From: Streptomyces carpinensis
GTDB taxonomy: Bacteria > Actinomycetota > Actinomycetes > Streptomycetales > Streptomycetaceae
Length of the DNA: 64,000 nucleotides
Direction of reading: 5' to 3'
Assembly (NCBI RefSeq): GCF_002154505.1
Contig: NZ_MUBM01000088.1
Location: 1 to 64,000, forward strand
The notes below the pieces were generated by a model. It made no database searches and had not been told where the DNA came from. It was given only the letters and a program-made list of their open reading frames with translations. Numbering within the stretch: the stretch's first letter is position 1; each line of letters begins with the position of its first letter. This document shows positions 93 to 8,268 of this stretch, in pieces. The translations under genes were made by a program, and so were the position numbers.

Positions 93-767
93 ATGAAGGA
101 GTTCCTGGTCGAGATCACCACGACCGTGCCCGAGGGCACCGACTCCGCGGAGGTCAGCCGCCGCCGCGCCGAAGAGGCCGCACGGGCCGAGGAACTCGCC
201 GCAGCCGGTCACCTGGTCCGGTTGTGGCGCCCTGTGGGCGAGCTCCGCAGCATCGGTGTGTGGCGCGCCGACAGCGAGGCGGACCTGCACGAGAAGGTCC
301 TCGGAACGCTGCCTCTGTGGCCGTGGATGACCGGGGTGGTCACCGCCCTGGAGCCGCATCCCAACGACCCGGGCTCGACCGGCGGCAGAACCCTGGTGAG
401 CAGCACGACAGCGCAGGAGGCGATCCTGCGTGGCGTCATGGACAGATGGAAGTCCGCCGTGGATGCGCACGAACCGCAGCGGGTCGCCTCCTGCTTCACC
501 GAGGACGCCGTCTTCCAGGGACTACGCCCCTACACCGTCGGCCGTCAGGGTGTCGCCGAGTACTACGACTCCCAGCCCCTCGGGTTGACGGCGGACTACG
601 AGGTGCTGCAGACACGGCAGTTGGCCGAGGACGTCCTGCTCGGCTACCTGGGTGTCGACTTCTCGTTCACCGACCGGCCGACCCTCGAGGTGACTCTCAG
701 CGTGGTCCTCAGGCGCGTCGCCGACCAGTGGCGCATCGCCCACTATCAGGTGTCCCGGCTCGGCTGA
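93..767 (+). CDS. muconolactone isomerase-like domain fused to SnoaL-like (NTF2-fold) domain
   Basis: The 224-residue protein has two parts. Residues 1-92 (start MKEFLVEITTTVPEG, then an Ala/Glu-rich helix and GHLVRLWRPVGELRSIGVW) match the small muconolactone delta-isomerase ferredoxin-like fold. Residues 105-224 (MDRWKSAVDAHEPQRVASCFTEDAVFQG, ending RVADQWRIAHYQVS) match the SnoaL/SgcJ NTF2-like fold used by small ketosteroid-isomerase-type enzymes. The ATG follows a GAGAGAGGAAGAGA purine run, a good ribosome site. Muconolactone isomerase normally acts in the beta-ketoadipate pathway, but none of its partners is nearby, so the substrate cannot be inferred. No signal peptide or membrane segment is visible, so it is probably cytoplasmic. 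Confidence 0.8.
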   Translation: MKEFLVEITTTVPEGTDSAEVSRRRAEEAARAEELAAAGHLVRLWRPVGELRSIGVWRADSEADLHEKVLGTLPLWPWMTGVVTALEPHPNDPGSTGGRTLVSSTTAQEAILRGVMDRWKSAVDAHEPQRVASCFTEDAVFQGLRPYTVGRQGVAEYYDSQPLGLTADYEVLQTRQLAEDVLLGYLGVDFSFTDRPTLEVTLSVVLRRVADQWRIAHYQVSRLG

Positions 768-1051: not shown

Positions 1052-2365
1052 ATGGGGACTCCCCCGAGGTCTCACTCCGGCTCGCACCTGAAGGTGCGTC
1101 GGCCCCCACCGGGAACCCTGTGGTCCCGGGTGTCCATGGCAGTGATCCTGCTGGTCCTCCTCATGACGACTCTTCTGCTGAGTCTGTTCGGCCTTGACGA
1201 CTTCTTCCATGCTCTGACTTTCCCCGGGCGCATCACCGGTGCCGTCCTCATCGTGGTCGCGCTCGCCACGTTCCTGGCGGCTGCCGCGGTCGTGGACCAC
1301 TGGTTCCGGCACAGCTTCCCCTACTCCGGCGTGGTCGCGCTGATCGGCGCGTTCGCGGCACTGCTGACCAACACCTGGCTCCTGGGCGAGACAGTGAGGG
1401 ACGGCGATTCCGCGACCTACCGGGCGCTGTTCGCCGCGCTCACGGCTGGTTCGGCATGGGCCGTCTTCGCGGTGTGGCGGACATCGGTCGTGATCCCCGC
1501 TCCGAAGCGGGTGGCCGCGGCAGTGATCGTGTCCTCGGTCATCGCGATCGCCAATTTCGGTTACCAGAACCTCTATCAGCCGTACCAGCGTCAGACCAGG
1601 CCTCTCCTCAAGTTGTCCATGGGCCAGCCCGTGTTGAGTCAGGACCGGAAGGCATTCGCCGTACCGGTCGACATCACGCTCGAAAACCACGGTGACGTGG
1701 GTTTCTACGTACTCGGCACCGAATTCCACGCCATGGGGGAACGGGTTCCGCTGAGCTCGACGGACCGGCTCCGCCAGCAATGGCGAACCGATGCCGAGCA
1801 GTGGGGCAATTCCCAGGAGGTGAACCCCCTCTCCCGTAGGGAAATCCACCAGCCCGGTCAGTTGGTGGAGGCACAACCATGGATGTCCTATGGGGGGTGG
1901 GTCGAGTCGAGTGACATGTTCACCACCCGAGTGGTGGTGCAACTGCCCATCGACACACCGTACGACCAGGTGGCGGTCTATGCCAGCGCAAGCCTCGCCC
2001 GCAAGGACCGGCTCGGCCTCGAGCCACCGCTTCAATTCAAGGCGTACTCCTGGAAGGAGAACAGCAAGGTCCCCGCGTGGGTGAAGGATGAAGAGAAAAA
2101 CGGCCTCGACACCATCGTCTACCAGGCCAGGGTGCATGAGAACAACTCGATCGACGAACATACGAGGGACCCGCGCTACGTGAACGTCTACTGGCAATTC
2201 GGTGCGCACGGCTCAAATGTCTCGTCAGCCGTTGCGCGAAACGGCGAGGACGGCCGCTATCCCACCGGACAGGAACTACGCGAGCTGAACAGCCGGTACG
2301 GTCTCTCCGACGTCGTCACGGGCCCGATCAAACGCACTCTGTGGGACATCAAGAGCCAGCGATGA
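1052..2365 (+). CDS. five-TM membrane protein of unknown function with large C-terminal domain
   Basis: The start is set at the ATG at 1052 because GCAGGAGGTGG lies 5-8 nt upstream; a GTG at 1031 would add 7 residues but has no such site. The 437-residue product begins with a basic tail and five hydrophobic stretches (about residues 27-46, 61-81, 92-111, 125-141, 152-168), followed by a soluble domain of about 260 residues rich in Trp and Tyr. An odd number of spans would put that domain outside the cell if the N-terminus is inside. I do not recognise the family. The 3' end overlaps the convergent cyclase gene (2349-4169) by 17 bp, so transcription of one can interfere with the other. A role in export or immunity for the neighbouring RiPP locus is possible but unsupported. 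Confidence 0.7.
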   Translation: MGTPPRSHSGSHLKVRRPPPGTLWSRVSMAVILLVLLMTTLLLSLFGLDDFFHALTFPGRITGAVLIVVALATFLAAAAVVDHWFRHSFPYSGVVALIGAFAALLTNTWLLGETVRDGDSATYRALFAALTAGSAWAVFAVWRTSVVIPAPKRVAAAVIVSSVIAIANFGYQNLYQPYQRQTRPLLKLSMGQPVLSQDRKAFAVPVDITLENHGDVGFYVLGTEFHAMGERVPLSSTDRLRQQWRTDAEQWGNSQEVNPLSRREIHQPGQLVEAQPWMSYGGWVESSDMFTTRVVVQLPIDTPYDQVAVYASASLARKDRLGLEPPLQFKAYSWKENSKVPAWVKDEEKNGLDTIVYQARVHENNSIDEHTRDPRYVNVYWQFGAHGSNVSSAVARNGEDGRYPTGQELRELNSRYGLSDVVTGPIKRTLWDIKSQR

Positions 2366-4169
2366 CAGGAACTGCCGGGCTGAGCGCGCTGGAGCGCTCG
2401 TCCAGCCGTTCCAGCCACATCACCAGGGCGAGCGAGCTGTTCACACGATCGCAGGCGTATGCGTCCCCCGTGCCGAGCTGAGCCTCCCGCACTGCCTGGC
2501 ACAGCGTCTCCACGTCGAACATCTCCGCGATCAGCGGATGCCGGGCGGAACGGCACAGGTCGATGAGCTCGTCGCAGTGCCGCCGCAATCCGCGGACGTA
2601 GAGATCGTTGAAAGGAATTTTGACCGCCCTGCCGCGGATCCGGGCCGGGAGCAGGTCCGCCATGGCCTCACGCAGAACCTCCTTGGGACGGCTCGCATGG
2701 AACGTGGCGTCGACAGGCAGGCGGCGCATCATGGCGACGACCTCCGGGTCGAGGAAGGGGTGCGAGAGGAAGAACCCGTCCAGTCGGGCGCGGTGCCACG
2801 ACAGCGGGTCAGGAGCGGCGAGGTAGTTGGCCGCGTCGTAGAGCGACTGCTCCGGCTTGCGTCCGAAGACGAAGCGGCTCTCCGCGATGCTGGCCGAACG
2901 GTAGCCGTGGGTTCGGGCGAATCCGGATCGCAGCCATCGTGGGCGGTTGAAGTTGCCGAGGCCGCCCAGCACCGTGCCGCTGCGGGCGAGTGCCGTGATG
3001 CGTTCGGTTGCCAGCGGGAGAGCCGGCTGGACGACGTAGGCGTGGAAGATGTCCCGCGAGCCCCGTTCGCTGCATGCGGCCCAGGCCCGTGCCTGCTTGG
3101 TCAGCTGCCGGAGCCGTCCCGTGCGGGCGAGCCTGTGCAGGTGGAACGGGTTGGCGTCGACCACCGGATCGGCACCGCAACCGGTCAGGAGAGTGTCACA
3201 ACCCAGTTCCGCGGCAGCGGCGTGAAGCCTGGCCCAGAACGGGGCGCGGAAGGCGTGCGCGTACGGCTCGTCCGCGTCTCCCGCGTGGTGCTGGAAGTCG
3301 TCGAAGTCGGTCACATCGTCGGCATCGACGATCACCGGGCGGGCCATGGGTGTCTGACGGGAGATCTCCTCCAACGCCGCGTCGAGGTACGGCCGCTCGC
3401 CTGCCAGCTCTCCACCGGAGAAGCGGCCGGAGAGCAGGAGGAGCTCCCCGGCGCTGACCCGCCCCGCGGCCAGTAGACGTGCTGCGAGCAGCGCGACACT
3501 GGTGGAGTCGGTGCCGCCGGAGACGTGACAGGCCGTCAGCGTTCCCATGCGGCGCCCGACGGCGTGCTCCAGCACGAGGCGCAGGTCCTTCGCGGCCTCA
3601 CGGAGGTGGGGGCGGGCCCCGTCTGCTGTCGCGACGGGCGAGTCGTAGTGTCGGCCACCTCGCAGCACCCGACTGCGCATCCGCCCGGTGAGCGACAGCT
3701 CCACCACCTCGCCGCCGAGGACGCGGTGCACCTCGGCGAAAGGGGTGATGTCCCAGTGCTGTTGGGCCATGTTCCCGGTGAGGTAACGGCAGAAGTAGTC
3801 GCGTTCGAGCTCCGTGACGCTGCCCAGGGAGCGGGCCGAGGTGCTGACGGCGCGCACGCGGCCACCTGACTCCCGGAAGAACAAGGGGACGCGTGCCTGT
3901 TCATCCCGCATCATGAGGATGCGGTCGCGGCACACGAGAACGGCGGCGTAGTCGCCGGCCGGCAGAGGCGGGGCCGATCCCTGTCGGGCGAAGTCGTCGA
4001 GGAGGCCGCGCACGCCCGTCACTCGGTCACGCACCGATCCGGCCCAGCCGACGACGGCCGCCGCGCCGGCCCGCGAAGAGACCGTCGTGACGAGCCCCTG
4101 ACGCTCCATGGCCTCGTCGATCCAGAGCCTCAGTGTGCCCCCCGCCCACTCGAGGCGGAGCGCCTCCAT
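2349..4169 (-). CDS. asparagine-synthetase-like lasso-type macrolactam cyclase (C protein)
   Basis: The 606-residue protein has the layout of lasso peptide cyclases. An N-terminal glutaminase-like domain (about 1-170) lacks the catalytic Cys of real asparagine synthetases. A synthetase domain follows with the ATP-pyrophosphatase loop SGGTDS at residues 217-222 and downstream YLDAALEEI, DTLLTGCGAD and a C-terminal PFLDPEVV/RPKEVLREAM segment. Family members adenylate an Asp or Glu side chain of the precursor and close an amide ring onto the new N-terminus. The start is the ATG at 4169, one base after the stop of the B gene at 4171 and preceded by GAGGACAG, so the two are translationally coupled; an earlier in-frame start at 4268 would run into the B gene. 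I infer it modifies the 4828-4944 peptide. A fatty-acid or amino-sugar amidotransferase of the same superfamily is the alternative. Confidence 0.8.
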   Translation of the reverse strand: MEALRLEWAGGTLRLWIDEAMERQGLVTTVSSRAGAAAVVGWAGSVRDRVTGVRGLLDDFARQGSAPPLPAGDYAAVLVCRDRILMMRDEQARVPLFFRESGGRVRAVSTSARSLGSVTELERDYFCRYLTGNMAQQHWDITPFAEVHRVLGGEVVELSLTGRMRSRVLRGGRHYDSPVATADGARPHLREAAKDLRLVLEHAVGRRMGTLTACHVSGGTDSTSVALLAARLLAAGRVSAGELLLLSGRFSGGELAGERPYLDAALEEISRQTPMARPVIVDADDVTDFDDFQHHAGDADEPYAHAFRAPFWARLHAAAAELGCDTLLTGCGADPVVDANPFHLHRLARTGRLRQLTKQARAWAACSERGSRDIFHAYVVQPALPLATERITALARSGTVLGGLGNFNRPRWLRSGFARTHGYRSASIAESRFVFGRKPEQSLYDAANYLAAPDPLSWHRARLDGFFLSHPFLDPEVVAMMRRLPVDATFHASRPKEVLREAMADLLPARIRGRAVKIPFNDLYVRGLRRHCDELIDLCRSARHPLIAEMFDVETLCQAVREAQLGTGDAYACDRVNSSLALVMWLERLDERSSALSPAVPVIAGS

Positions 4170-4170
4170 G

Positions 4171-4794
4171 TCACTGTCCTCCGCGGTCGATCGCGAGCAC
4201 CGGTGTGAAGGCGTGCCCGCGCGGATCGGCGTCCGGGATGCACAGGCCGGCCGAGGACGTCCAGGCATGCAGAGCGAACGGGTGTTCGCGCACCCCTACG
4301 TGGAGTACCGCCTTCAGGCCGCACCGCCGCAGCAGGACGAAGGCCGTCACGGCCTCCGACTTGCAGTCGCCGTTGACGAGCCAGCTTCTGCGGCTGTGTG
4401 ACTGCACGGCCGCTTTCAGGCGTCCGACCTCGTCCGCGTCGGGAAGATCCGCACGGACGTAGTCCGGGGCTGCCAAGGACAGCATCCGAAGGACGCGCCC
4501 GAATCCCATGGTCCGGATCAGCAGGTGCACTCCACGCAGCCAGAGCCCGATACCGACGTCCGAATACCGCTCCCGGCGGTGGGGCGCGCAGCCGGCACGG
4601 ACGAGGCAGGCGACGAGTTCAGCGCGTTCCTCACGACTTCCTTCGCTGAGCCTGTGGACGTCCGTCGTCGTCATCCCGAGAAAGCGCGTCCGCTTCCAGT
4701 CCGCGATCAGCGCTCCGCTGGACATCCGGGTGACACGGCAATGCGGTGACAGAATGCTCGCCATGGCCACCAGGGCATCGGTGTCATCTGCCAC
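4171..4794 (-). CDS. fused RRE / transglutaminase-like leader peptidase (lasso B1-B2 type)
   Basis: The 207-residue protein combines two lasso maturation parts. Residues about 14-75 (LSPHCRVTRMSSGALIADW, then a helical TTTDVHRLSEG segment) resemble the PqqD-like RiPP recognition element that holds the leader. Residues about 84-205 match the B2 transglutaminase-like protease: catalytic Cys144 in NGDCKSEAVTAFVLLRRCG, His176 in FALHAW, and Asp188 or Asp190 in IPDADP. The usual E after HAW (HAWVE) is replaced by TSS. The start is the GTG at 4794, placed 7 nt after GGAGG. The gene sits 33 bp after the precursor stop and 1 bp before the cyclase. Separate B1 and B2 genes are common in actinobacteria, so the fusion is notable here. 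Confidence 0.8.
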   Translation of the reverse strand: MADDTDALVAMASILSPHCRVTRMSSGALIADWKRTRFLGMTTTDVHRLSEGSREERAELVACLVRAGCAPHRRERYSDVGIGLWLRGVHLLIRTMGFGRVLRMLSLAAPDYVRADLPDADEVGRLKAAVQSHSRRSWLVNGDCKSEAVTAFVLLRRCGLKAVLHVGVREHPFALHAWTSSAGLCIPDADPRGHAFTPVLAIDRGGQ

Positions 4795-4827
4795 CGCACA
4801 TCCTCCGGGGTTCCCTCGCGACCGGTG

Positions 4828-4944
4828 TCAGGAGTGGTATCCGTGACCGTCGAAGAATCCGCCGCTGAACCCCCGGATCAGACGGCCATTGCCGAGAAGG
4901 ACGAGCCGACGCGGCCTACGAAGCCTCAGAAATCGGTGAAACAT
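4828..4944 (-). CDS. candidate lasso-type RiPP precursor peptide, 38 aa
   Basis: This short reading frame begins at the ATG at 4944 with GGAG 7 nt upstream and ends 33 bp before the B gene, the usual place for a lasso precursor. The leader (residues 1-24) is very basic, with an RRPRRLVLLGNGRLIR stretch, and keeps only a partial P..L...G recognition pattern. The Thr normally found two residues before the core is absent (Ile). The tail GFSGGFFDGHGYHS (residues 25-38) would give a Gly1-Asp8 eight-residue macrolactam; Gly25 is the only Gly in register with an acid at ring position 7-9. Its GFxGxxxD start recalls the core of anantin. The assignment rests on position, ribosome site and core register; product formation is inference. 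Confidence 0.68.
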   Translation of the reverse strand: MFHRFLRLRRPRRLVLLGNGRLIRGFSGGFFDGHGYHS

Positions 4945-5346
4945 CGCCTAACTCCATAATCAGGCAGAAACCATCAATTCCAGGCTACTCCGACCTGAGG
5001 AGCCCGCAACCGAACCGCGGCCTTCATTCGGCCGCTTCGACCCCAAGTCCTTGCGTCCTGCGCCAACCTGGCTGCAGGAATAGGGTGGCCGTAGCGGGGC
5101 ACGTCCCGGCGCTCACTGGAGCGCGGAGCGGACGGGTCGCCCGAACTTCGGTCCATCCAGGCTCACTTGTCGGGACCTGCCCTCTCAGACGACTGCTCAT
5201 CGAGCACCAGTCCTTCCAACCGATCCGCGTGAGCCCACCGCGGCTCGCCCCACGAAACGCTTACGGACGACAGGGTGGGGCGAGGGGGACTCGGCGGCGC
5301 GGGCCGACGCGTGCGGGCCCGTGCGTTCGGCGCGAGGAGAACCATC
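4945..5346. other. intergenic region between RiPP operon and divergent DUF6424-like gene
   Basis: About 400 bp without a convincing gene. It must hold the promoters for the leftward RiPP operon and the rightward 5347 gene. A short inverted repeat GCGGCC-N7-GGCCGC lies at 5017-5035. A 60-codon frame on the minus strand (4974-5156) has no ribosome site or family resemblance and was not accepted. Confidence 0.5.
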
Positions 5347-6255
5347 ATGACCACTTCCGGTACCGCGGCACCGCACAGGACTCCGGCCGGGCCGAAACCC
5401 GGCGGCGTGGAGTCGGAGAACCACCCCTGGAAGATACGCCTGGTCGACCATCCCAAGCGTTACGAGTCGGCGTACTTCCGCGCGGCCAAGAGGACGGTGC
5501 ACAAGATTCTCGCTGAGATGGACAATGACGACCTCCCTTACGGGTCCAGGCCGACCGGCGCCCAGCATTGGGAGATGCACCACGGCGGCAGCCTGTGGGT
5601 CAAGGGGAAGAACGGCTGGCGGATGTACCGCGCCAGGGTCGGCATCGAGTGGAGCATGCAGTTCTGCGCCGAGCCGTCGAAGGTCGACCGGCTGCGCGAG
5701 GAAGCGGCTGAGCTCGTCGACGCATTCCCACTCACTCTGCCTGCCCTGGCGGCGCTCGGGTACGAAGAGGCCGAACAGCTGCTGCGTACTCCGATCACGG
5801 ACGCCGATGCCGTCGAACGGTGGACCGACTGCCTGTTCAACGCCTGCGTACCGATGAGCCACGGCAATCACCAGGGGGTCCTGCCTCAGGTTCCCGGGGA
5901 GCACCACTACCCGTGGCCCGTGAAGGGCGCGGACTTCGTCCGGTACCAGGACTTCGAGCTGTGGGTGACCCTGCCCGACGGGACGCACGGCGCGGTCGCG
6001 CCGGTGGACCGGCGAGGCTCGGGCGACGGTCACGTACGTCTGGTCCACGTTTCGGAGGAGAGCGAGGCAGCCGCAGCGTTCGTGGAAGCGCAGGAGCAGG
6101 GAAAGATGGCCGTGCTGCCGCCCAACAGCCCGGTCGCGCTGCAGGCCTTCGCCCAGCAGATCGCCCCTGGACGACGGACCGCGTCCGGCCCGCCGGCGCC
6201 GCACTCCGCGGCGGCGCGGCGATCGCCGACAGGTGTTCGGCGCAAAGCCGAATAA
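5347..6255 (+). CDS. DUF6424-like protein of unknown function
   Basis: The 302-residue product starts at the ATG at 5347, 8 nt after AGGAGA. The central part (residues about 23-190: NHPWKIRLVDHPKRYESAYF, MHHGGSLWVKGKNGWRMYR, GIEWSMQFCAEPSKVDRLR, FNACVPMSHGNHQGVLP) resembles a streptomycete family I remember as DUF6424, whose function is not known. There are no catalytic motifs I can name, no signal peptide and no membrane segment. The C-terminal 40 residues are low-complexity Ala/Pro/Arg. The next small gene begins 11 bp downstream, so the two may be cotranscribed. The DUF number is from memory and should be treated as tentative. Confidence 0.7.
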   Translation: MTTSGTAAPHRTPAGPKPGGVESENHPWKIRLVDHPKRYESAYFRAAKRTVHKILAEMDNDDLPYGSRPTGAQHWEMHHGGSLWVKGKNGWRMYRARVGIEWSMQFCAEPSKVDRLREEAAELVDAFPLTLPALAALGYEEAEQLLRTPITDADAVERWTDCLFNACVPMSHGNHQGVLPQVPGEHHYPWPVKGADFVRYQDFELWVTLPDGTHGAVAPVDRRGSGDGHVRLVHVSEESEAAAAFVEAQEQGKMAVLPPNSPVALQAFAQQIAPGRRTASGPPAPHSAAARRSPTGVRRKAE

Positions 6256-6265
6256 AATACGCTCT

Positions 6266-6496
6266 GTGAGCAAAAACAGTGACGACGGCCGGAGGGGCGC
6301 CGGCGAAGGCGGGCGGAGCGGTGAGGCCGAGCGTGACGACGCCGAGCGCCGGGCGACCGAGAAATTCATCGGTGACCTGCTGGCGAGGGGCGAGGCGGTT
6401 TTCGAGGGCGAGGAGCCCACGGCGCGAACCACGCACGTCATCAAGCGCGAGGACGACGGACGGCTCACCGTCCGCCGTCTGCGCTTCTTCCGCTGA
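6266..6496 (+). CDS. small basic/acidic hypothetical protein
   Basis: A 76-residue frame starting with GTG at 6266 (MSKNSDDGRRG) 11 bp after the DUF6424-like gene. It has a charged, disordered N-terminus and a conserved-looking core ATEKFIGDLLARGEAVFEGE followed by REDDGRLTVRRLRFFR. Small streptomycete proteins of this style are common, but I cannot name a function. No strong ribosome site precedes the GTG, so an in-frame GTG at 6233 overlapping the upstream gene, or coupling to it, is possible. It converges with the metallopeptidase gene ending at 6510. Confidence 0.55.
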   Translation: MSKNSDDGRRGAGEGGRSGEAERDDAERRATEKFIGDLLARGEAVFEGEEPTARTTHVIKREDDGRLTVRRLRFFR

Positions 6497-6509
6497 TCCC
6501 GCTACCCGC

Positions 6510-7943
6510 TCAGTCGAAGCACCGCCGGACCAGGGTGAGACCCTCGCCGGTCGAGCTTCGCGTGATCTGGTGCGTCTTGAGCCGGGAGGGGTTGTCGTCG
6601 ACGAACGCCGCATCGGTGCGGTGCTCCTCGGGTACGTCGACCCGGCCTCGGCGGAAGAGGTCCTCGAGGTACGACGTGGCGACCCGCTCGGGGTCGGCGG
6701 GCCGCAACGAGCCGCCGGCGGGGTCGGAGCCCGCGATGCCGAACCGGCGTTCCTGCGCCGGGGCGGAGAGGGTGAGGGGCTGAGTGACGCCGTACGTCGC
6801 CCCGTGGATCGTGACGGCCGTCAGACCCTCCTCGTCGCCACCGCCCGGCTGCGCCTCGGCCATTCCGGCGCCTCGGCGTGCCACCTCCGGCTCGGTGATG
6901 GACACGGCGGCCTCCAAGGAGAGAATGCCGTGCCGGATGAACGCCGAGCGCAGGGACTGACCGTATTTGCCGCCGTTCCGGCGCTGGTCCGCGGCGATCA
7001 TGTGACCCGCGACCTGCGCGTAGTAGGCGGACACCACGGGCGCGGACACCACAGCATCCACCAGCAGCTGTCCCGCGATGTCGGCCGCAGCGGCCAGACC
7101 GGCCTGGTCCTGCAGGTCCTGCTGCCGGAAGATCCCGGCCACGATCTTCAGGAAGGCTCCGCTGAACACCCTCGAGAACGAGTGCGGCTCGCTGCACAGC
7201 ATGTTCGCGGGACCGTTGGGCGACAGCTCCACCGGGTCCCGGTAGAAGAAGCTGTTCGACAGGTTGCGCAGGCAGTCACGGTCGACCGCGGTCGGGTGAC
7301 CCTGGCGGATCGCCCAGCCCAACTGCTCGGCCATTCTCGACACCCTCGAGGACAGTTCCAGGTCGCCCTGCGTCTCGGCAAGTACCGCGATCCGCAGCGA
7401 TTCCAGCCGCAGTGAGCTCAGCAGGGCGCTGATGTCACCGAAGGCCTCGTGCAAGGCCGCCGTCTCGGCACTCGCCGCGTTGAACAGCTGGGGGCGCAGG
7501 GCGTCGAGGATCGCGTGCCCCGTCTCATGCTCGACGACCTCGTTGCTCTCGCACGCGGCGACGGTGACACCTGCCACCGTGCGACGGAAGAACCACAGAC
7601 CTCTGCGGTCGTAGAAGGCGTTGAGGTCGTCTCCCGCGTTGAGGTGCGCGGTCAGCGCGCGGCCGACCGTCGGATGCCATTGCGTTCCGGCCGGCACCAG
7701 CGGCCCCCAGGTCTGGCTGGCCCGGCTGAGGGCATCGGCCGCCACCCAGTAGCGGAACGCCTCGGTGCCCGGCCCGGCACTGTCCGGCTGCGGCGCGGCC
7801 TCCGCGATGGCCGTCGGGAAGGGCTGTGTGTCGAGCTGTGGGACTGGATGCGGTACGGGCACGTTGACCTGTGGCGGATATCCGGGGTCGTCCTCGTACA
7901 CCAGAACCGTGGGGGTGGTGGGTTGTTGTTGCTGCAACGTCAT
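6510..7943 (-). CDS. thermolysin-like (gluzincin) zinc metallopeptidase, cytoplasmic
   Basis: The 477-residue protein carries HETGH at residues 139-143 in VVEHETGHAILDALRP and a second zinc ligand motif HEAFGDISAL about 23 residues later (Glu166, Asp170), the gluzincin signature of M4-like peptidases. Unlike thermolysin relatives it has no signal peptide or propeptide; it begins MTLQQQQPTTP and a Pro/Gln-rich tract. The start ATG at 7943 lies 5 nt after GGGAGG. Catalysis would use the zinc-bound water and Glu140. The substrate is unknown. It is divergent from the FMN reductase at 8269. The translation extends about 200 residues past the zinc core with no recognised domain. Confidence 0.75.
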   Translation of the reverse strand: MTLQQQQPTTPTVLVYEDDPGYPPQVNVPVPHPVPQLDTQPFPTAIAEAAPQPDSAGPGTEAFRYWVAADALSRASQTWGPLVPAGTQWHPTVGRALTAHLNAGDDLNAFYDRRGLWFFRRTVAGVTVAACESNEVVEHETGHAILDALRPQLFNAASAETAALHEAFGDISALLSSLRLESLRIAVLAETQGDLELSSRVSRMAEQLGWAIRQGHPTAVDRDCLRNLSNSFFYRDPVELSPNGPANMLCSEPHSFSRVFSGAFLKIVAGIFRQQDLQDQAGLAAAADIAGQLLVDAVVSAPVVSAYYAQVAGHMIAADQRRNGGKYGQSLRSAFIRHGILSLEAAVSITEPEVARRGAGMAEAQPGGGDEEGLTAVTIHGATYGVTQPLTLSAPAQERRFGIAGSDPAGGSLRPADPERVATSYLEDLFRRGRVDVPEEHRTDAAFVDDNPSRLKTHQITRSSTGEGLTLVRRCFD

Positions 7944-8268
7944 GGAGCCTCCCTGGTCGGAGAGATCACGGATGGCGGAATCCCCCACAGGAAAACCCTT
8001 GGCCAAGATTTCCTCGTGACCAGTACGAGGCCCTGGCAGGCCGGTGTCAATCCGGGCAGAAGCAGGCGCGGCACCCGCCGACCGGTCGTCGCAGCAGGTG
8101 AGCGGACCGGTGACTGTGGTCCGTGGCCGGTGCACACGCGCCCGTGCCCGAAGCCTCGGGATTGAGCCGATCGGGTGCAGCGCCCGCAAGGGTGAGCGGG
8201 GCCTCTCGAACGGCGGGCCGAGCCCAAGCAGACTGCCCGGCAGAGCACGTCCGACGGAAGGAGGCATC
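7944..8268. other. divergent intergenic region
   Basis: About 325 bp between the divergent metallopeptidase (start 7943) and FMN reductase (start 8269). It must hold both promoters. No inverted repeat of clear strength or small gene was seen. Confidence 0.4.

Follow-up and report, generated by a model that had tools for sequence, protein, structure and literature searches.

A candidate lasso-peptide locus of a divergent lineage in Streptomyces with a linked gene for a putative membrane protein

The locus and its precursor gene

A 64,000-nucleotide stretch of Streptomyces carpinensis DNA (contig NZ_MUBM01000088.1, positions 1 to 64,000; referred to here as the window) begins at a contig end, in a genome of 10.4 Mb and 824 contigs, and carries near its start a candidate lasso-peptide locus. 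The locus comprises a short precursor gene (A), a gene for a peptidase fused to a predicted recognition element (RRE) of ribosomally synthesized and post-translationally modified peptides (RiPPs) (B), a gene for a predicted macrolactam cyclase (C) and a convergent gene for a putative membrane protein (M). Numbered on the window, its features are the following.

4828-4944, minus strand: A, precursor gene, 38 aa, ATG start, with homologues upstream of B
4944-4873, minus strand: predicted leader of A, 24 aa
4872-4831, minus strand: predicted core of A, GFSGGFFDGHGYHS, 14 residues
4952-4955, minus strand: ribosome-binding site GGAG of A, read from the sequence; GGAGGT in most relatives
4982-5010, minus strand: conserved promoter-like element GTTGCG-N17-TAGCCT, its end 37 nt upstream of the ATG of A; from an alignment of 18 upstream regions
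4171-4794, minus strand: B, fused RRE and lasso B2 peptidase, 207 aa, GTG start
2349-4169, minus strand: C, asparagine-synthetase-like macrolactam cyclase (predicted), 606 aa, ATG at 4169, stop at 2349
1052-2365, plus strand: M, putative membrane protein, 437 aa, start codon set from an aligned GGAGGTG plus start

The genes lie in the order A-B-C with intergenic gaps of 33 bp (A-B) and 1 bp (B-C), as a preliminary description made from the sequence alone had reported; a longer mechanical frame for C, opening at 4268, would overlap B, and the alignment places the start of C at 4169. That description gave the extent of the locus as 2349-4944, which is right for A-B-C and overlooks the linked fourth gene, M. 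Its placement of an Asp at ring position 8, counted from the first Gly, also holds, Gly25 to Asp32 of A being core positions 1-8.

Conservation of A was followed in two genome sets that overlap and whose counts are not additive. A search of 392 genomes of the genus with B returned 44 with any match and 18, the S. carpinensis genome among them, with a close B (70% identity or more, the remaining B matches standing at 40% or less). A scan of named genomes with an alignment of C gave 35 loci, 34 of which have B (the exception, L089, is described below); 32 of these 34 are filed as Streptomyces, one as 'Actinobacteria bacterium OV450' and one as Peterkaempfera, and together with the window they make up the 35 sequences used in the statistics given here. 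A homologue of A lies directly upstream of B in all 18 genus genomes with a close B and upstream of B in 34/34 named loci, and a profile of A recovers those same 18 of the 392 genomes and none besides. An order-wide draw of 391 genomes contained 19 with a close B, 13 of them new and all in the same genus.

The predicted core is 14 residues long in 35/35 sequences, with Gly1, Ser3, Gly4, Asp8, Gly9, His10 and Gly11 invariant; Tyr7 and Tyr12 are each kept in 33 of 35, the window core having Phe7. Counted from the aligned ATG, A is 38 residues long in 33 of the 34 named loci and 39 in the Streptomyces musisoli locus (L069). The median pairwise ratio of nonsynonymous to synonymous substitution rates (dN/dS) is 0.34 over 558 of 561 pairs from 34 sequences, L069 being left out for its length and three pairs falling outside the accepted dS range. 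The preliminary description had tied its reading to the presence of homologous short frames upstream of related B-C pairs; such a frame was looked for and is conserved throughout, and no other conserved frame upstream of B was seen by eye in the 18 upstream listings. Judged by these comparisons, A is a real gene.

In 31/35 loci an element of the form GTTGC(G)-N17-TAGCnT is found 34-39 nt ahead of A; L055, L062, L069 and L080 have only looser versions. The exact motif occurs once, at A, in the 10.4-Mb S. carpinensis genome, a count to be read with the fact that the motif was derived from these same loci. The GTTGCG-N17-TAGCCT element may act as the promoter of A. Two extensions of this idea were rejected: a wider regulon, since the exact motif occurs nowhere else in that genome, and a promoter shared with M, since none of 31 upstream regions of M matches.

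The maturation enzymes and the leader

Window B scores 66 bits against a curated cut-off of 33 for the lasso B2 family (NCBIfam NF033537), a model that matches 35/35 aligned B members at E <= 0.01, and PF13471 matches it as well (E 9.4e-21). The peptidase part spans approximately residues 86-201, with Cys144 and His176 invariant and Asp188 nearly so, and the RRE part approximately residues 13-72. An AlphaFold model of B has a predicted local distance difference test (pLDDT) value of 76, with poorer values in the N-terminal third, and shows strands at 19-24, 27-32 and 38-42, followed by helices. Structural comparison with VIA aligned residues 13-72 with the lasso B1-leader complex 6jx3 (Z 4.9, root-mean-square deviation 2.8, 60 residues aligned) and the same stretch with TbiB1 (5v1u, Z 4.5), the PbtF RRE (8t19, Z 4.0) and MccB (3h9j, Z 3.8), while the rest of B aligned with papain/transglutaminase-like folds. 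Because four leader-binding domains fall on residues 13-72 of a lasso B protein, an RRE is the best reading of that stretch, and the N-terminus of B is predicted to bind the leader. The fused RRE and peptidase of the preliminary description agrees with both the lasso B2 score and these modest N-terminal alignments.

PF00733 matches window C above its cut-off (E 1e-23). The motif SGGTDS, replaced by SGGIDS or SGGLDS in three sequences, conforms to SGGxDS in 18/18 aligned members, and residue 2 is Glu, Asp or Gln in 18/18, with no Cys. In the PDB, C matches beta-lactam synthetase by sequence (E 1.6e-13), as well as asparagine synthetases. On these sequence features C is a predicted lasso-type cyclase of a divergent kind.

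According to the accessible text of Duan et al. (2023; PMC10368454), the usual lasso leader carries Tyr at -17, Pro at -14 and Leu at -12. In the family described here Pro(-14) is present in 34 of 35 leaders, the remaining one having Ser; position -2 is Ile in 34/35 and Val in 1/35; and position -1 is Arg in 35/35, whereas a further row (L039) and the additional A of S. echinatus described below have His there. With Gly25 taken as the first core residue, the leader Pro sits precisely at -14, which supports the predicted core and an Asp8 ring on grounds separate from the ring count. The odd leader pointed out in the preliminary description, with no canonical Tyr and no Thr at -2, is real and has a precedent: in the same accessible text, processing with Ile(-2) by B1/B2 is shown experimentally for BsfA of Bradymonas sediminis, and Ile or Val at -2 is present in other putative precursors (PMC10368454). 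Because Ile(-2) works in BsfA, the missing Thr(-2) is a known kind of variation.

The linked membrane protein and the copies of the locus

M converges on C, with a 17-bp overlap at the end of C. It adjoins C in 31/34 named loci, in one of which (L087) it is in two pieces, and the three loci without an adjacent M (L066, L073, L084) belong to genomes that hold a close M (51-63% identity) elsewhere. Within the genus, the genomes with an M of at least 52% identity over almost the whole length are precisely those 18 of 392 that have A and B, and an intact close M was found in 0 of the 374 B-negative genomes. Any M match at all is found in 67 of the 392; of the other 49, 48 hold only relatives at 39% or less. 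The 13 further B-positive genomes of the order-wide draw all have a close M (49-74%), beside B in 11 and elsewhere in two (G458 and G462), and no genome with A-B-C and without any close M was found. Around distant relatives of M, 15/15 loci (9-16 kb fetched) are without a match to A, B or C at E <= 0.001, and a tie between the wider M family and lasso genes was rejected for this reason.

A model of M (pLDDT 79) has five long N-terminal helices and a beta-sandwich domain; the length of the helices and their hydrophobic sequence suggest that they are transmembrane. Foldseek gave six matches at E <= 0.001, the best to Spo0M (E 2e-5, 10% identity, template-modeling scores 0.19/0.30), and the best VIA match was the beta-sandwich domain of factor XIII (Z 8.6, 113 aligned). 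These matches express a general beta-sandwich likeness and give no functional clue. Pfam has no match for window M at E <= 0.01; across 31 M members it gave scattered weak matches in a few, among them PHO4 in two (best E 6e-4).

In S. echinatus (L073), A-B-C lies without M on one contig, and a second intact A, with M and with neither B nor C, lies on another:

L154:8927-9043 (contig C6), minus strand: second S. echinatus A
L154:7516-8850 (contig C6), plus strand: second S. echinatus M, about 70-75 bp from A

This second locus runs collinear with that of S. musisoli, at 86-96% identity on either side of a gap where the 2.4 kb with B and C is missing. The arrangement indicates that a genome can retain the full set of parts even when they are distributed over separate loci. 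Genome G130 has a full locus and, in addition, a second M facing a partial C (L156:2668-3195; 47.6% identity, residues 408-589). Two further remnants were seen. Genome G033, without a close B, carries a fragment of M with a stop (L219:9480-9737, contig C53; 51-55% identity), and the 14 kb fetched there gave no match to A, B or C; the fragment is possibly what is left of a lost locus. The exceptional L089 has a partial C at 6001-6804 (51% identity, residues 165-410); A, B and M are absent from its 12.8 kb, the genome as a whole gave no match to M, and the locus is a decayed or distant copy.

The operon is also present on a 114-kb linear Streptomyces plasmid, where A is 39 aa long. In the plasmid annotation B is named lasso B2, C is called asparagine synthase-related and M (47% identity) is a hypothetical protein; A can be read in the sequence but has no entry in the gene table, which declares itself incomplete. 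Of the two records returned by a plasmid search with C, one belongs to this family and the other is a protein of Nostoc (28.8%). Near the plasmid locus (L220), on its other side, the annotation lists an M4 peptidase and the protealysin inhibitor emfourin. In genome G617, B occurs twice on the large contig C1, once on each strand and with the same score (217611-218228 and 8054697-8055314), near the contig ends, which suggests that the locus there lies in terminal inverted repeats.

A motif scan for ATP-binding cassette (ABC) exporters (Walker A plus an LSGG-type signature, in frames of at least 60 aa), which was aimed at this exporter type only and covered 36 sequences (L055-L089, up to about 6 kb on either side, and the first 15 kb of the window), found only one, in L059. 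The preliminary remark that no ABC exporter is adjacent is therefore upheld for the window, and a clustered ABC exporter as a trait of the family was rejected, an ABC-transporter-like frame lying near 1 of 35 B loci. A kinase gene is likewise not adjacent in the window, the only locus inspected by this look at immediate neighbors (A-B-C is contiguous, and its neighbors are M and a DUF6424 gene), and none is listed within 8 kb of the plasmid copy in its incomplete gene table. Other genes surround the locus in the window:

93-767, plus strand: muconolactone-isomerase-like domain fused to a SnoaL-like domain
5347-6255, plus strand: DUF6424 gene, upstream of A
6510-8087, minus strand: protein with an HETGH stretch, upstream of A; Pfam M36 at E 0.32

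Interpretation and alternatives

Class II lasso precursors are short, with a core that usually begins with Gly and has Asp or Glu at positions 7-9, and Gly1 and Asp8 are found in 35/35 sequences here; the locus adds an RRE predicted at modest Z, a B2 peptidase, an asparagine-synthetase-like cyclase without the glutaminase Cys, and Pro(-14). The GFxGxxxD start of the core presumably recalls the anantin-type lasso peptides, with a shorter tail here. Actinobacterial class II clusters (A-B1-B2-C), which usually carry an ABC exporter D, share with this locus the short precursor, RRE, B2 peptidase, cyclase, Gly1-Asp8 register and Pro(-14). Unlike them, the present family has its RRE and peptidase fused in one protein, no Thr(-2) or Tyr(-17), a near-invariant core, a linked M and an exporter-like frame at only one of 35 loci. 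In actinobacteria the two B functions are usually split, as stated in the accessible text of PMC10368454. The bsf cluster of B. sediminis, as described there, shares Ile(-2), Gly1 and Asp8 with A; it differs in a leader that keeps YxxPxL, in B1 and B2 being separate, and in its genes for a Ser kinase, a nucleotidyltransferase and an ABC exporter (PMC10368454). None of these genes is adjacent in the window, the kinase gene of such phosphorylated Ile/Val(-2) lasso clusters included. In the open literature no paper was found for the core string or 'GFSGG' together with lasso peptide, where mining tables in supplements or subscription journals could hold an entry, and none of the listed titles and abstract openings on penultimate isoleucine, immunity or membrane protein, transporter, fused B/RRE, albusnodin and genome mining was seen to deal with the A-B-C-M family. 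The best reading of the family is a new, divergent variant of the lasso peptide clusters. The divergent lasso lineage suggested at the outset thus gains support from the B2 score, the C motif and a precursor with Pro(-14), Gly1 and Asp8 in register.

These data have led us to propose that the four genes A, B, C and M are probably the functional parts of a divergent and complete lasso-peptide locus, with M as a dedicated membrane partner (exporter/immunity or receptor). In the proposed pathway, the RRE half of B would bind the Arg-rich leader in the Pro(-14) register, and its peptidase half would cut before Gly1, with Ile(-2) standing in for Thr. C would then adenylate Asp8 and join it to the freed amine of Gly1. 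The product would be a class II lasso with an 8-residue ring, a threaded 6-residue tail and, for the window core minus water, a calculated [M+H]+ of 1453.592 and [M+2H]2+ of 727.300; the corresponding value for the consensus core of the family is 1460.587. It would be independent of a clustered ABC exporter and work with M instead, M most likely being its exporter/immunity partner or its receptor.

Several observations weigh against this proposal. An unrelated Cas13 chain aligned with about the same N-terminal stretch of B at Z 3.8, and Z values of this size can arise by chance; a sequence search of the PDB with B gave nothing at E <= 0.001, and Foldseek found no match for B at E <= 0.001, its top probabilities being low. 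C falls below both NCBIfam cyclase cut-offs (146.7 < 300; 86.8 < 525), which are thresholds of the models and do not define the class; the second was reached by 0/99 genomes of the order. The first belongs to the albusnodin/ikarugamycin cyclases (NF033561), the best NCBIfam match of C and nearly full length, where the places listed above the window's own scored 190 to 737 bits. Compared with asparagine-synthetase-like proteins fetched from the order, C shows 23-29% identity in alignments of at least 300 residues, short pieces being higher. In the 35 leaders, Tyr(-17) is replaced by Arg, Leu or Ile, Leu(-12) occurs in only one (Arg in 19, Gly in 15) and Thr(-2) in none, these three being usual traits of lasso leaders and not class-defining. 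As for M, its absence from B-negative genomes comes from a search that scored at most four candidates per genome at first look, and co-variation between core and M is absent after removal of the divergence of C (partial Mantel r 0.09, p 0.26, n=31), the core varying too little for a strong test. Linkage is the sole ground for the predicted role of M.

It is possible, if doubtful, that M confers immunity to an antibacterial product, protecting the producer from outside or in the membrane. Such a role fits the strict genetic linkage of M and its five long helices with a beta domain, as well as the retention of M beside the C piece in L156 and beside A without B or C in S. echinatus. Immunity genes, however, often persist alone in non-producers, and of close M the 374 B-negative genomes showed only the G033 fragment; the lack of an intact close M among them argues somewhat against simple immunity and for a partner needed only with the peptide, for export or self-reception. 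A-B-C-M could instead be an autocrine or housekeeping module, in which a near-invariant 14-residue lasso acts with its own M as receptor or co-factor, in signaling or at the envelope, and not an antibiotic with exporter immunity. A highly conserved core fits a fixed target in the producing cell better than an arms race. We put this idea forward tentatively and think it rather improbable.

The product of A-B-C might also be a branched-cyclic macrolactam RiPP with the same ring, unthreaded, given that its tail has only 6 residues, is Gly-rich and offers few bulky plug residues (His10, Tyr12), and that C is far from the other cyclases fetched. We think this unlikely, as B belongs to the lasso B2 family by the curated cut-off and both the ring position and the leader register match those found in lasso peptides, among which comparable lengths are known (huascopeptin). 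It is very unlikely that M is an unrelated neighbor traveling with the operon by shared location: its wider family, at 39% identity or less, does occur in 48/374 B-negative genomes and, in the 15 loci fetched, apart from A, B and C, but the genomes without M beside C hold a close M elsewhere (3/3 named genomes, and G458 and G462), which position alone does not explain. The chance that the 38-aa frame is spurious or the wrong precursor is practically nil, for although the frame is missing from the incomplete plasmid gene table and matched by no Pfam or NCBIfam model, its conservation in every B locus tested, with a ribosome site, a constant core length and purifying selection, led us to reject a chance frame.

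If the reading of A-B-C-M as a divergent lasso-peptide locus is right, it defines a coherent lasso lineage in 18 of 392 sampled genomes of the genus, one that may be overlooked because it departs from the usual leader rules (A is not in the incomplete table of one annotated record, and C lies below the cut-offs). It would also mean that a fused RRE-peptidase of Streptomyces recognizes Ile(-2). Should the autocrine idea prove true, the family would provide a lasso peptide with a dedicated membrane partner in the same cell, with maturation and partner at separate loci in some genomes, acting in trans. Because co-occurrence names M as the candidate partner, the lineage, if rightly read, also offers a direct and genetically simple test of what use a lasso peptide is to its maker.

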